Positions 21,135 through 27,444 of a DNA stretch of 64,000 nucleotides are shown here, piece by piece. Each line of letters starts with the position of its first letter. Position 1 is the stretch's first letter. A program made the position numbers and the translations under genes. The notes under the pieces are model-generated. The model did no database searches and was not told where the DNA came from. It saw only the letters and a list, made by a program, of their open reading frames with translations. The DNA comes from an uncultured Persicobacter sp. (GTDB lineage: Bacteria > Bacteroidota > Bacteroidia > Cytophagales > Cyclobacteriaceae). The stretch spans positions 124,001 through 188,000 of the forward strand of contig CANMKE010000005.1 of NCBI GenBank assembly GCA_947498325.1, given 5' to 3'.

Positions 21135-21863
21135 ATGTGTTACCATGTTAATGTCAATACCAACGGAAAACAGATCAGCGATCAGTTTGATTTAAGCATT
21201 CCCCTGGGCTTTCATTTTCCGCCAATTCATCATCAGTCAGGCTTTGATTTCCCGCAATTACCCATCACCACCCATCAGGGTGTTTTGCAATTGGCAAGCT
21301 GGGGATTGGTGCCTGAGTGGGTTAAAAGCCCTGATCAAGCGATGAGCATGAAAAGTGCTACCCTGAATGCACGTGCAGAAAGTATTTTCCAGAAACCCGC
21401 TTTTGCGGAATCGATGGTCAACCGGCGTTGCTTGGTTTTTCTGACAGGATTTTTTGAATGGCAGGCTGTTGGCAAAAATAAATACCCATTTTTTATTCAT
21501 TGTCCCGAGCGGCCAATCATTCCGATGGCAGGAATTTTCAGTCATGATCCACTAAAAATATCAACAAATGAGAAGGATATGACTTTTTCGATAGTCACCG
21601 TTCAGGCTAATGCATTGATGTCTAAAATTCACAATACCAAACAGCGTATGCCCTTAATTCTGAAGGATGATCAATTATCTGCATGGATGGCCCCTGAGAG
21701 CAGTCAGAAAACTCTGAAGTCGTTGATGTTACCTTATGACGGGCCGATGAAAGCGCATTCAGTAAAATTGAGACTACAACAGGGTAGATTTGTAAATGAG
21801 GCCACAGCAACCGATCGGGTAGATTACCCTGCATTAGCATTTAAGCAAGGTCGATTGTTTTAA
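21135..21863 (+). CDS. SRAP-domain protein (YedK/HMCES-like abasic-site sensor)
   Basis: A 242-residue SRAP protein. Family members form a thiazolidine crosslink between Cys2 and abasic sites in single-stranded DNA. The key parts are visible: Met-Cys at the N-terminus (MCYHVN), ARAESIFQKPAF, RCLVFLTGFFEWQ with the conserved Glu, and IHNTKQRMPLIL with the conserved His-x-Arg-Met-Pro block. It lies immediately upstream of the condensin operon in the same orientation; the operon's -33 element begins 4 bases after this stop codon. Confidence 0.93.
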   Translation: MCYHVNVNTNGKQISDQFDLSIPLGFHFPPIHHQSGFDFPQLPITTHQGVLQLASWGLVPEWVKSPDQAMSMKSATLNARAESIFQKPAFAESMVNRRCLVFLTGFFEWQAVGKNKYPFFIHCPERPIIPMAGIFSHDPLKISTNEKDMTFSIVTVQANALMSKIHNTKQRMPLILKDDQLSAWMAPESSQKTLKSLMLPYDGPMKAHSVKLRLQQGRFVNEATATDRVDYPALAFKQGRLF

Positions 21864-21866
21864 TGC

Positions 21867-21895
21867 TTGCCTTTCATTTTTTTCTTGTATTTTTG
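21867..21895 (+). promoter_or_regulatory. Promoter of the MksFEB-like operon
   Basis: TTG (21867-21869), 18-base spacer, TATTTTTG (21888-21895) fits the Bacteroidota consensus. It predicts a start near 21902 and a leader of about 28 bases before the GTG start at 21930. Confidence 0.55.
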
Positions 21896-21929
21896 AGCGC
21901 AAATTTAATCTTTTACGAAAAAAAGCAAG

Positions 21930-23171
21930 GTGCCTGCATTTCAATCAGCGGAACAACTATTACGTGATATAGGTGGCAAACGGGAGCGTCTGATCATCAA
22001 TTACCTCTTTGTGAATAAGCACGGGCGGTTTGATGTATTGGCCGATTTGCTCGAGGGTGATGAACGATTTCTTCACCGTATGATTGCCAAAAGTATATTG
22101 GTCAAAAGGGACGAATGGCTCTATTTGGATGATCGGATTTTATCCTTTCTCGAGCGATTCCTGGAAGTTAATGAGGATATTCAGAACTATGAGGTCGATG
22201 AAAAAATTGGTGCTATTGCCCTAAACATCCGACTTTTTCAGGAGGAAAATGCCTGGAAACGAAAGGAAGTCTTTTTGCAAAAAGTAAAAAAGGCAATGAG
22301 TTCGCTCGGGCGGGTGGTTAAAAGGAATGTGATTGATCTGGGCAAACAGGTTCAAATGGACTATAAAACCGAGGTGAACCCGAAGGTTAAAGAGATCAAA
22401 ATTTCTGAGCATAATAATAAGGCGGTGAAACTCCGCAAACTGATCGAAGGTATCGAAGACCTGTTGGAGAACCGGGTGTTTTTTCAGGAAGCGAATGATG
22501 AGATGCTCAACAGACTTTCGGTAGAATTGCGCTACGATTATTTACGCGATGCCAAAGTCAATCTTCGGGAACTTTCACAGGAAATCGTAGGGTACCTGAA
22601 TAGAATTCAGGCCATGCAGGCGGTTCATCGGAAATTGCAGGAAGTTAAGCGACTGAAGGATCTTTTTGAGCTCGAAAAGCGGAGTAATGTGGAAGCGCTG
22701 ATTCAGCAACAGCAGGGACTCTTCTTTGCTCCTCGTCTTTTTATTTCGACGCCCCCAAGCCTTGAATTTCTTCGATCGGATCAGGGCCATGCGATTATCA
22801 GCAAGGTAGCGAATAAACTCCGACATCGGGCGCGGCAGAACAGCAGTAAATCTGGGGTAATGGCGAAGAAAGCGTTAGATACCACGGCTGTAAAAGAAGC
22901 GCGGATCAATTACTTTAAGTTGCAGCAGGAGTTTTTTAAGGGTGATAAAGATTTATTTCAATTTTTATTGGCCTTCCCTTTCGAAACGAATGGAAGTTTG
23001 GAAGATCGGGTGAAAATATTCTGTAAAATGGCTTTGATGTATGAGGACAGGATGTTCTTTACGGGTATTACTGAAGTGCATGAATCCTTGCGTTATGGTG
23101 TGATTTTACCTCGTGACCCACGAAAATCTAAATCAGAAAGAATAGAAAATACTAATTGGTTCAAGGCATAA
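21930..23171 (+). CDS. MukF/MksF/JetA-like condensin kleisin subunit
   Basis: A 413-residue, mostly helical protein. An N-terminal winged-helix-like part (LIINYLFVNKHGRFDVLADLLEGDERFLHRMI) is followed by a charged helical middle and a C-terminal globular segment, as expected for a kleisin bridging SMC heads. Identification rests chiefly on gene order: it is followed by a MukE-like and an SMC-like gene. The start is GTG at 21930; no ATG is available upstream before an in-frame TAA. First gene of the operon. Confidence 0.75.
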   Translation: MPAFQSAEQLLRDIGGKRERLIINYLFVNKHGRFDVLADLLEGDERFLHRMIAKSILVKRDEWLYLDDRILSFLERFLEVNEDIQNYEVDEKIGAIALNIRLFQEENAWKRKEVFLQKVKKAMSSLGRVVKRNVIDLGKQVQMDYKTEVNPKVKEIKISEHNNKAVKLRKLIEGIEDLLENRVFFQEANDEMLNRLSVELRYDYLRDAKVNLRELSQEIVGYLNRIQAMQAVHRKLQEVKRLKDLFELEKRSNVEALIQQQQGLFFAPRLFISTPPSLEFLRSDQGHAIISKVANKLRHRARQNSSKSGVMAKKALDTTAVKEARINYFKLQQEFFKGDKDLFQFLLAFPFETNGSLEDRVKIFCKMALMYEDRMFFTGITEVHESLRYGVILPRDPRKSKSERIENTNWFKA

Positions 23172-23174
23172 CTG

Positions 23175-23729
23175 ATGGAAAATATAAAAAAAATAATTGC
23201 TCCTGTATTCGATGTTTTAAGTCGGGGAGGCTTTCTGAGCGCAAATACCAGCCGTTTGGAACACCGAAAACTTTATGGTAAGGTAGAGGAGCATTTTGAG
23301 CAACTTCATGAATATTACCTTGCCTTGGGCTTCCACCTTCAGCATGGGCATAATTATTTCTACTTTACCCGCGAGGAGCAAAAGTATGCTACGGAGGAAA
23401 AGTTGGAGCGATTTTATAAGTATATCGACATATTGGCATTTTTTGCCGATTATTTTCAGGGTTTTGGTGAAGGCTATCGATTTTCAACTTCCGACCTGGA
23501 GCAAAAGTGTAAGGTGGATACCAATTTGAGTGATCAGCTGAAGGTGATCATCCCTGAGGGAAGCACCTATTATGATAAAGCAAGACGAGTGGTTAAGCTG
23601 ATGACCGATCGGGGATTTTTCATCTGTGAAGATGATGAACGCGAAGACTACAAGGTGCTTTCTGCCTATAATTACTTACTGGATTTGATTAAACTCATTG
23701 ATATTGATGAAGACGAGACAACTAAATAA
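23175..23729 (+). CDS. MukE/MksE/JetB-like condensin subunit
   Basis: A 184-residue acidic helical/winged-helix protein, for example FSTSDLEQKCKVD followed by VVKLMTDRGFFICEDDEREDYKVLSAYNYLLDLIKLI, typical of MukE-like subunits that bind kleisin. It starts 3 bp after the kleisin stop and overlaps the start of the SMC gene, consistent with a fixed-stoichiometry complex. Function inferred from the operon context and length. Confidence 0.75.
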   Translation: MENIKKIIAPVFDVLSRGGFLSANTSRLEHRKLYGKVEEHFEQLHEYYLALGFHLQHGHNYFYFTREEQKYATEEKLERFYKYIDILAFFADYFQGFGEGYRFSTSDLEQKCKVDTNLSDQLKVIIPEGSTYYDKARRVVKLMTDRGFFICEDDEREDYKVLSAYNYLLDLIKLIDIDEDETTK

Positions 23730-26700
23730 GCTGATATTTATTAATAGTGCTTCGGTGGCTTACAGCGAAGTTGCCTTGGATGGAAATATTCACTTTGTGG
23801 GCTCGAATGGGTTTGGAAAAACCACCGTTTTACGGGCGATTCTGTTCTTTTACAATCCCAGCGACCGAAAGCGAGATTTGGGGATTCGGGAAGATCAGAA
23901 GGCATTTTCTGAGTATTACTTCGAGCGTTCAGACTCCTATATTATTTATGAGGTCAATCACGAAGCAGGGCCATACTGTTTGGTGCTCTACAAGCGAAAT
24001 GGGCGTTTGCACGTGCGTTTTGTTGAGTCGGCTTATCAGCGTGATTGGTTTATTGCTGATTATCAGGCCAACGATCAGGCGGAAGTTTGGCAGAATATTC
24101 AGTCAGCAGGTATAGCTATCGTTCCTGAGGAAATTACGCGGTTAGGTCATTTGCGTCAGATTCTTTATGGGGCAGGGGCAGAGAAAATCTGGCGTCGTTT
24201 CGCCCTTTTCAAAATGCACTCGGGAATGCAAAAGCGAAAGACCAACAATATCCCTTTGGCGATTTCGAATATTTTCCGCAGCTCTCGTCTGGATTCAAAC
24301 TACATCAAAAAATCAATTATTGATGCCGTGTTTTATGAATCCATCAAGCCTCTCGATTTGTCTGTTATTGAGCGACAACTCGCCCGTTTCCGAAACGACC
24401 TCAAAGATCTTGATAGTTATCAGTCGCAGGAAGATGTGGCTAAAGAGATTATTCGTCAGTTTAATGAGTTGGAAGAATTAAAGCATACGCTCGATACTAC
24501 TGCGACCAATTTAGGGCATAAATTGAAAGAAGTCCGGGCCAAAATTGACCGTATTGATACGGATATGGAAGGTTTTCAGCAGCAGATGACTGAAGAAGAT
24601 GGGAAGCTGAAAGCTTTGCAAACTACCTATGATGAACAGCTTGGTCGCTTGAATGGTGAAATTGCCGTGCTTAAAAATGAACTGACGGAAACGGAGCGAT
24701 TGAAATCCTTCTTTAAGGATAAGGATATTGAGACGTTGGTGAATAAGGTTAAAGGCAAGTCGCTGAAAGAAAAACAATTGATCAAGCTGAAAACTTCTTT
24801 GGAGGAAACAGGCCGAAAAGTTCAGGATGTTGCGGTATACTTTGAGAATAAACTTGCCCGCCTTGAAAATGAAAAATTAGCCTTCGAAAGTCAGTTTTCC
24901 GAAAAAAGGCACCTGGCTCAGGCCACATTATTAGAGGCTAAAACGGCCGAGAATGAGCTTTTTGAGCAGACGAAATTGGAGATTGAGGATCAGTTTTTAC
25001 AACGAATTGTGCCTTATGAGAAGGAAGTTGCGGAAAAACGTGCGCAGTACACCGATCTTCAGAGCAAGCTGCGAGAGGTAGAAAAGCAACCTTTGGTATC
25101 GAAGGAGCATCAGCAATTACTTCAGGAAATTGGGGATCTTGAACAGCAGGGACTCAGCTGGGATCATGAACATAAAATGCTGTTGCAGGAAATCAGCAGC
25201 AAAAAAGAACTTTATGCGCTAAAGGTAAAGCATCTGGAGTCAGATACTCACGCACAGAAAAAGCGCCTGCAGAAATCTTATGTCAGTACCGAGGAGCAAC
25301 TTCACAAAGTTGAAACGCAGCTGAAAGGATATGAGGGGTCGTTGCTTTCTTTTTTACATGAGCAGGTCGATGGCTGGGAATCACATTTGGGCAAAGTACT
25401 GAAAGAAGAAGTTCTGTTTTCGAAAAATCTTTCGCCTGCCTTTGATCCCGATCAGTCGAATAACTTATTTGGATTATCGCTTAATCTGGCAGACTTACCG
25501 AGCACCTCGCATTCTATCGAACAGCTCGAAGCACTAAAAAAAGGTTTTTCCAAACAGTTGAAAAGTATTGAGGTAGAGTTGTCGCAGCTCGAAGCTCACT
25601 TCCTGAAAGAGTCTGAAGAGCTTCAACAGGCGATAGGATTACCGGTGAAGAAGCTACAGAATCGGGTCGATCAGTTGCGCTATGATCAGGAACGCTGTCA
25701 GGTGCAGGTAAAAAACCTGAAGTTGGAAGTTGATGCGCTGTCGCAAAAAGAGCAGGCGGTTCACGCAGAAAATTTGCATCAGATACACCTTCAGCTGGAT
25801 GAGGTTGAGGGAGCGTTGAAAGGAGCGGAACAGCAATTGCAGGCTGTAAAGCAGCAACAGAAGGAGGAGTTGCTGGCGCTTCAGGGGCGTCATCGTACCA
25901 CCTTGGCACAAGCGGAAGAACATTGCTCCAAACAATTGCAGGGAATTGCCCAAGAGGCCAAGGAGCGTTTGAAGCTGTGGAAAGAAGAAAAAGAGGATAT
26001 ACGCAAGGATCGCGATGCCCAAATGGCAGGGAAAGGCATCGATCCTGATCGTGTTCGGATGCTCGAACATCAAATTGAAACGCTGACAGCCGAGTTGGAG
26101 GAAATTGACGATGAGGCCATTGAATTGGTGAATCGATATAAGTTTGCGCAGGAACGTTACCTTGATGTTGAGCTGGATAATGTTAGAAAGTTAGCAGATG
26201 CCGAAGGTAAGGTCAATCAGTTGGCGGAGGATTTCCGACTGAAATCTGCAGGTGGTAAAAGGGCGGTTAAAGAACTTCAAATGCAAATGGGGCAACAGCG
26301 ACAGTTGCGAAAAGAGTTGAACGCCCTGATTGCGCAGGATTTTGAATATTTCAAAACCGGAGCGCATTCAGTTTACCATGTTTATCAGCATTTGATTGAT
26401 CATCCGAAAGGGGAGAACACCCACGGATTGGAACTCAAGGAAAGTATACATTTAATGAACAGCCATTTCAGCAGGCTGACGGTTGAAACGACTCAGTTAC
26501 AGCGTAAATTGAATAAATTTACAGGCTTGTTTTCTTTGAATAACTTCTTGAATTTCCCGAAAAAATTAGAGAAGGATCAGGATTATCTTGATTTTGTACG
26601 CTATCATTTGGAGCCATTCGTGACCAATAATATGGTGGAGCTGGCACGTAAGCAATTGGAGAAATTGCATGCAGATACGATCAACGACATCGCCCGGGAG

Positions 26701-27393
26701 GTGAAGGATTTTTCTACCCACTCTACAGAAATTCATGCGGTAATTGCTCAGATCAATGCTGATTTTGAATCGAGTAATTTTGTGGGCGTAGTTAAAAGTA
26801 TTCAGCTGGACTTTCGGGAGAAAAATGCGGGCGTGATTCAACTGATGCGGAAAATAAAAAAATTGACTGAAGATCATCAGTTTGGGGCGCAAGCGGGCAT
26901 GTTCAATAAAGGGCTGTCCGAAGATATCAGTCAGGAGTCGATTAAATTACTGACACAGTTAAAATCAGCCATTGATGATGCCCCCAAAAAAATCATTTCA
27001 ATCCATGATACTTTTGACCTTTGGTTCAGGGTTGAAGAAAATAATAATGATACCGGTTGGGTGGAAAAATTATCGAATGTGGGCTCCGAAGGAACTGATG
27101 TGATGGTGAAGGCGATGATCTACATTACACTGCTAAATGTATTTAAATTGAATGCTTTCCGAACCGACAGTAACTATTGCATACATTGTATGATTGATGA
27201 GGTGGGGAAATTGTCGGATCGCTACCTTCGTGAACTGATCAATTTCACCAATGATAAAAACATCCGCTTGATTTTTGGTTCTCCGAACGAAAATGATCCA
27301 CTGATCTATCAGCATGTTTATAAGGTGCATCGAGAGGATGACCATATTCAGGTGATTGAGCTTATTGGCGAAGAGCAACAGGAAGCCTCCTGA
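23707..27393 (+). CDS. MukB/MksB/JetC-like SMC ATPase
   Basis: A 1228-residue SMC-like ATPase. Walker A is GSNGFGKTT at residues 32-40; Walker B is in CMIDEVGKLSDRYL close to the C-terminus; between them are two long coiled coils (about residues 220-1000) separated by a central hinge-like region. A C-motif-like GSEGTDVMVKAM precedes Walker B. ATP-driven DNA loop extrusion or compaction is the known activity. ATG at 23707 was preferred over the TTG at 23698; it overlaps the MukE-like gene by 23 bases. No JetD-type nuclease gene follows: the operon ends in a terminator. Confidence 0.88.
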   Translation: MKTRQLNKLIFINSASVAYSEVALDGNIHFVGSNGFGKTTVLRAILFFYNPSDRKRDLGIREDQKAFSEYYFERSDSYIIYEVNHEAGPYCLVLYKRNGRLHVRFVESAYQRDWFIADYQANDQAEVWQNIQSAGIAIVPEEITRLGHLRQILYGAGAEKIWRRFALFKMHSGMQKRKTNNIPLAISNIFRSSRLDSNYIKKSIIDAVFYESIKPLDLSVIERQLARFRNDLKDLDSYQSQEDVAKEIIRQFNELEELKHTLDTTATNLGHKLKEVRAKIDRIDTDMEGFQQQMTEEDGKLKALQTTYDEQLGRLNGEIAVLKNELTETERLKSFFKDKDIETLVNKVKGKSLKEKQLIKLKTSLEETGRKVQDVAVYFENKLARLENEKLAFESQFSEKRHLAQATLLEAKTAENELFEQTKLEIEDQFLQRIVPYEKEVAEKRAQYTDLQSKLREVEKQPLVSKEHQQLLQEIGDLEQQGLSWDHEHKMLLQEISSKKELYALKVKHLESDTHAQKKRLQKSYVSTEEQLHKVETQLKGYEGSLLSFLHEQVDGWESHLGKVLKEEVLFSKNLSPAFDPDQSNNLFGLSLNLADLPSTSHSIEQLEALKKGFSKQLKSIEVELSQLEAHFLKESEELQQAIGLPVKKLQNRVDQLRYDQERCQVQVKNLKLEVDALSQKEQAVHAENLHQIHLQLDEVEGALKGAEQQLQAVKQQQKEELLALQGRHRTTLAQAEEHCSKQLQGIAQEAKERLKLWKEEKEDIRKDRDAQMAGKGIDPDRVRMLEHQIETLTAELEEIDDEAIELVNRYKFAQERYLDVELDNVRKLADAEGKVNQLAEDFRLKSAGGKRAVKELQMQMGQQRQLRKELNALIAQDFEYFKTGAHSVYHVYQHLIDHPKGENTHGLELKESIHLMNSHFSRLTVETTQLQRKLNKFTGLFSLNNFLNFPKKLEKDQDYLDFVRYHLEPFVTNNMVELARKQLEKLHADTINDIAREVKDFSTHSTEIHAVIAQINADFESSNFVGVVKSIQLDFREKNAGVIQLMRKIKKLTEDHQFGAQAGMFNKGLSEDISQESIKLLTQLKSAIDDAPKKIISIHDTFDLWFRVEENNNDTGWVEKLSNVGSEGTDVMVKAMIYITLLNVFKLNAFRTDSNYCIHCMIDEVGKLSDRYLRELINFTNDKNIRLIFGSPNENDPLIYQHVYKVHREDDHIQVIELIGEEQQEAS

Positions 27394-27410
27394 TTGTAGA
27401 TTGAAAACAG

Positions 27411-27444
27411 AAATGGCACTTGCGGAAACAAGTGCCATTTTTTA
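27411..27444 (+). terminator. Bidirectional terminator
   Basis: Perfect 12-bp arms AAATGGCACTTG (27411-27422) and CAAGTGCCATTT (27429-27440), loop CGGAAA, T tract after. It lies between the condensin operon and the convergent LeuA/CimA gene. Confidence 0.95.

Follow-up and report, generated by a model that had tools for sequence, protein, structure and literature searches.

A candidate nuclease-free MksBEF condensin operon on a chromid-like replicon of Persicobacter psychrovividus

The window, a stretch of 64,000 nucleotides from contig CANMKE010000005.1, contains a three-gene operon coding for a kleisin-like protein, a KITE subunit and an SMC ATPase. The organism is Persicobacter psychrovividus. 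The three subunits and the absence of a nuclease gene place the operon, as judged from sequence, among systems of the MksBEF kind. It is not a Wadjet, because the gene of the defining nuclease was looked for in the operon and not found. The operon probably codes for a nuclease-free MksBEF condensin that serves genome maintenance and is kept under purifying selection.

Organisation of the operon

The mksF-like kleisin gene (positions 21930..23171, + strand) starts with a GTG codon and codes for a protein of 413 aa. It is followed on the same strand by the mksE-like gene of the KITE subunit (23175..23729, 184 aa) and by the mksB-like gene of the SMC ATPase (23707..27393, 1228 aa), whose start overlaps mksE by 23 nt. 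Pfam searches place the KITE protein in the MksE family PF21980 (E 7e-31; 108 bits, with the cut-off at 27) and assign the SMC protein to DUF3584, PF12128 (E 7e-57, 193 bits). An alignment of MksB with 15 relatives revealed that its Walker A, signature and Walker B motifs are all intact and mostly invariant. The Walker A motif GSNGFGKTT (residues 32-40, 23800..23826, + strand) is near-invariant across the aligned relatives. The ABC signature motif LSNVGSEGTD (residues 1122-1131, 27070..27099, + strand) has G1126, S1127, G1129 and T1130 invariant, as are D1164 and E1165 of the Walker B motif CMIDE (residues 1161-1165, 27187..27201, + strand).

The kleisin-like protein gave no significant match in the Pfam search. 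The best Foldseek matches of its AlphaFold model (mean pLDDT 75) are MukF and E. coli JetA, with a best E of 0.0017. In the structural alignment the MukF rows span 209-269 residues at Z about 12, while unrelated helical bundles reach a similar Z but over about 130 residues. Since long helices match many proteins, the likeness of fold gives moderate support to the third subunit being a MksF/MukF-like kleisin.

Downstream of mksB an intrinsic terminator (27409..27442) is common to mksB and to a convergent leuA-like gene that ends at 27442. It has a 14-pair stem with a T-run on the + strand and a 13-pair stem on the - strand, and is thus usable both ways. The space between mksB and the leuA-like gene contains no ORF of sufficient length for a further gene of the operon. 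The arrangement described in the earlier note, a kleisin-like gene, a MukE-like gene and an SMC gene with intact Walker A and B motifs followed by a terminator, is found at these coordinates. That note had named a conserved four-gene order in sister strains as an argument against its reading. In the type strain NBRC 101262 the three genes have the same order, again with no JetD gene as the fourth. Its RefSeq annotation places the starts of mksF, mksE, mksB and the upstream SRAP gene exactly as in the window.

When compared to the type strain, mksF and mksB have pN/pS values of 0.054 and 0.050, respectively, and MksE is 100% identical, with no amino-acid change. The operon is therefore under purifying selection.

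Replicon and neighbourhood

The closest record to the operon is plasmid pPP3 (NZ_AP025295.1, 379,741 bp, circular) of the P. psychrovividus type strain NBRC 101262. The MksB proteins of the window and pPP3 are 99.2% identical across the full protein, a match that rules out a location of the operon on the main chromosome. Plasmid-type parAB genes (223368-225033) and a replication initiator gene (228955-230406) are found in pPP3 together with genes for enolase, citrate synthase, glutamate synthase and phosphofructokinase and an arginine-biosynthesis cluster. It is this combination of plasmid-type replication and partition genes with enolase, citrate synthase and arginine-biosynthesis genes that makes pPP3 look like a chromid. 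Of the chromosomal MksFEB condensin, one of two readings offered in the earlier note, the MksFEB type without JetD is retained, but its place is a chromid-like replicon of 380 kb.

In Persicobacter sp. JZB09 the operon is carried by an 859-kb replicon, where MksB is 61% identical to that of the window and none of the tested window neighbours was found nearby. In Persicobacter the operon lies off the main chromosome and its neighbourhood has turned over. This includes the SRAP gene (21135..21863, + strand; PF02586, E 3e-44), which is considered here as a neighbour and is not counted in the system.

A second operon with a JetD-type nuclease

A profile search for JetD_C (PF09983), positive for the C. 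glutamicum control, gave no match anywhere in the genome of the window. The one JetD-type gene of this genome, a divergent member of DUF7281 on contig C8 (G000:C8), came to light by neighbourhood comparison alone, the PF09983 search having missed it. It belongs to a second mksFEB operon, on the same contig, whose subunits are 27-37% identical to those of the window. The earlier note had named as an argument against its reading a JetD gene elsewhere in the genome that is needed for plasmid exclusion. The divergent JetD is such a gene by location, and its four-gene operon is interrupted in the strain of the window.

In the type strain the paralogous operon is intact on plasmid pPP6 (157,247 bp), with the 285-aa gene directly after it (L155:18269-24553). 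An intact four-gene operon of MksFEB and DUF7281 is also present on a 1.58-Mb replicon of JZB09 (L157:8242-14550). The paralogous mksB of the window's strain (mksB2) is split by an insertion of 9,024 bp (about C8:152726-161750; L031/L066) whose junctions share an 11-bp repeat, an interruption that the type strain does not have. The insert has one gene for a tyrosine recombinase and another whose product weakly resembles a phage capsid protein. Genes for AAA-ATPase-like proteins are found on both sides of the pPP6-type operon (L031:6422-8023, L066:11602-15058); the one tested matches PF09820 and PDDEXK_9, and on the downstream side two nearly identical copies stand in tandem.

The 285-aa protein matches Pfam DUF7281 (PF23947) and the PADLOC JetD1 model (E 9e-5), while its score with JetD_C is 13-16 bits or none, below the cut-off of 22. 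With about 285 aa it is shorter than the PADLOC JetD models, which have 346-409 positions. The Toprim residues E157, D205 and D207 are invariant in the alignment of the family. The model of a DUF7281 relative (pLDDT 89) has its best match in C. glutamicum MksG (8b7f; Z 13.1, 153 aligned residues, rmsd 3.3). It matches P. aeruginosa JetD (7til) with Z 11.1, 160 aligned residues and rmsd 3.9, and also topoisomerase VI-A and Spo11. The invariant acidic residues and the structural match to MksG and JetD indicate that the DUF7281 protein is a divergent, short JetD-type Toprim nuclease with a predicted topoisomerase VI-A-like fold. By fold and motifs, the DUF7281 proteins behind Bacteroidota mksB genes (e.g. 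L090:7439-8287) are JetD/MksG-like Toprim nucleases, in a family that Pfam still labels as of unknown function. Neither MksB nor the DUF7281 protein gave more than coiled-coil noise when profiles of the two were searched against PDB sequences, and the name DUF7281 was not found in the literature searched.

Clades and distribution

The analysis covered 80 named loci, together with 33 MksE hits that come from 26 genomes of the order. In an unrooted tree of MksB head domains three clades, A, B and C, are each recovered with UFBoot 100. The window MksB is in clade A (UFBoot 100, FastTree 1.0), whose sister is clade B. Clade A also includes JZB09, all Flammeovirga genomes (9/9) and three further genera, and in no clade-A locus examined is there a nuclease gene beside mksB. 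Two profile searches of nine clade-A genomes (G034, G047, G090, G118, G131, G163, G172, G198 and G210), some of them fragmented assemblies, detected neither JetD_C nor DUF7281.

Clade B is the commonest form in Bacteroidota, a four-gene system whose last gene codes for the DUF7281 nuclease. In its sample, which is biased by the search, this gene is found behind mksB in 63 of the 72 loci with room downstream, and in 61 of 64 mksB-DUF7281 pairs it starts within 40 bp. Clade C is mostly without nuclease; its sole nuclease (L144) nests among those of clade B, with weak support. Loss of the nuclease from a plasmid-cutting Wadjet is suggested in reviews as the origin of condensins such as MksBEF (PMC10586767). 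As far as the unrooted MksB tree can indicate direction, a loss in clade A is likely, the alternative being a gain of the nuclease in clades B and C. A motif of JetB, IFDR, is said to contact JetD (PMC10586767) and was considered as a marker of nuclease loss. It was rejected: the corresponding MksE stretch, IFxxLSxG, occurs in clades A, B and C alike, and the arginine is mostly missing even where a nuclease gene is present, so that the motif does not discriminate.

Nine clade-B loci (L079, L081, L086, L094, L095, L104, L112, L113 and L128) are without a DUF7281 gene up to 1.5 kb from mksB and may represent independent losses or systems with other effectors; in L081 mksF is inverted and located downstream. 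In L129 and L149 about 8 kb of extra DNA separate mksFE from mksB and its nuclease. In G018 (L061, L169) mksE is on one contig and mksB and mksF are about 45 kb apart on another, with no nuclease match. The IncC plasmid pVIM-Exn692 (L158) has an MksB-like SMC gene, interrupted by an IS256-family element, next to Tn7-like transposition genes.

Proposed function and alternatives

In the proposed condensin, the MksF kleisin would bridge dimers of the MksB SMC ATPase, with MksE bound to them. The complex would most likely load on DNA and use an ATP-driven cycle to extrude loops. As it has no JetD-type nuclease, it would organise DNA and help its segregation rather than cut it. Like MksBEF in Pseudomonas aeruginosa, it would work next to SMC-ScpAB; the presence of SMC-ScpAB in the window's genome is judged from ScpA (PF02616, E 6e-38, G000:C1:353330). 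The three genes are kept even when they are dispersed. In G047 and G102 mksF, mksE and mksB are on three separate contigs, with mksE (L032:14446-14988 and L033:14163-14705; 55% identical to that of the window) alone behind an aspartokinase-like gene, and in G172 mksF is about 150 kb from mksEB. Such retention of dispersed genes is more in keeping with a housekeeping complex than with a defence cassette. MksE is patchily distributed in the order, where 26 of 291 genomes have it when all clades are counted. This pattern, unlike that of an essential condensin, counts against the condensin reading.

An unrelated nuclease might act in trans, or both complexes might share the pPP6-type JetD. The operon could be viewed as a decayed or effector-swapped Wadjet, which still senses small circular DNA and recruits in trans a nuclease such as the DUF7281 JetD of pPP6. 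A JetD-like protein is indeed coded by another replicon of the same species and, as clade B illustrates, four-gene operons are frequent in Bacteroidota. This reading is nevertheless unlikely. The pPP6 nuclease has an MksFEB of its own that is only 27-37% identical to that of the window, the nine searched clade-A genomes gave no match to either nuclease profile, and clade A persists in every Flammeovirga genome. A clade-B copy or fragment occurs in 4 Flammeovirga genomes, sporadic there whereas clade A is fixed.

The location on pPP3, and on the 859-kb replicon in JZB09, is compatible with a condensin devoted mainly to pPP3 or to other extrachromosomal replicons that a multipartite genome cannot lose. 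The only rrn operons of the family are on plasmids (PMC10645730) and Flammeovirga genomes are likewise multipartite (PMC13342612). In the near-complete Flammeovirga assemblies, however, the clade-A operon is found on the largest, chromosome-sized contig, so that a chromid location is no rule, and pPP3 carries its own ParAB; such a specialised role seems rather improbable. The earlier note had further proposed a functional link to SRAP. The two genes are on the same strand in P. psychrovividus, with a gap of 66 bp between SRAP and mksF, as would suit a unit for repair of abasic or single-stranded DNA damage. This adjacency is confined to that species; neither JZB09 nor any of the 31 further MksE loci examined in the order has an SRAP gene next to the operon. 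A conserved link is largely refuted by these observations and a joint function is very improbable.

The host of the proposed condensin is unusual. According to Anda et al. 2023 (PMC10645730), the only rRNA operons of Persicobacteraceae, including P. psychrovividus with its 13 replicons, are found on plasmids of 13.7 to about 30 kb; their work makes no mention of SMC, condensin or Wadjet. A search for 16S rRNA gave no match in three Persicobacter genomes (G000, G292, G291). The rrn-plasmid organisation is taken from PMC10645730, and the missing 16S may reflect small rrn plasmids that were lost from the assemblies. Plasmids of this size, under the limit of 50-100 kb, are as a rule destroyed by Wadjet (PMC10586767). 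An active Wadjet coded by the pPP6 operon would have to leave the rrn plasmid intact, and this paradox is the most interesting question raised by the analysis. A speculative and quite unlikely reading would be that the nuclease-free MksBEF of the chromid keeps rrn plasmids organised and inherited, and perhaps shields them by competing for circular DNA with the Jet-like nuclease system of the same cell. Nuclease-free and nuclease-bearing paralogues of deep sister clades, on two replicons of one species, make a good system for relating the motors of defence and genome maintenance.

Comparison with known systems

MksBEF and JetABC are ATP-driven SMC complexes, and Wadjet cuts circular DNA below 50-100 kb via JetD, for which a total-extrusion model was proposed (PMC10586767). 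In C. glutamicum the nuclease is bound by MksF (PMC10123090). The window operon shares with Wadjet (JetABCD or MksBEFG, types I-III) the kleisin, KITE and DUF3584 SMC genes in equal order. It differs in having no JetD/MksG, in a genome without JetD_C, and in PADLOC JetC scores that are marginal only.

The Bacteroidota clade-B operons of MksFEB and DUF7281, for which no description was found in the literature searched, have homologous MksF, MksE and MksB and provide the paralogue present in the same species. Their JetD-like Toprim nuclease gene follows mksB in most loci, as counted above, but never in clade A.

E. coli MukBEF has the same types of subunit and probably the same kleisin fold. The SMC protein of the window, with 1228 aa against 1486 aa, is however shorter, gave no match to the MukB family profile (Pfam, up to E 1), and is found in a genome that has ScpA.

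In P. aeruginosa PAO1 MksBEF takes part in organising and segregating the chromosome (PMC7485682). The window operon differs from it in its chromid-like replicon and in having a sister clade with a DUF7281-type nuclease. The likeness lies in three subunits of MukB, MukE and MukF type that have no nuclease partner and exist alongside SMC-ScpAB (PMC7485682).
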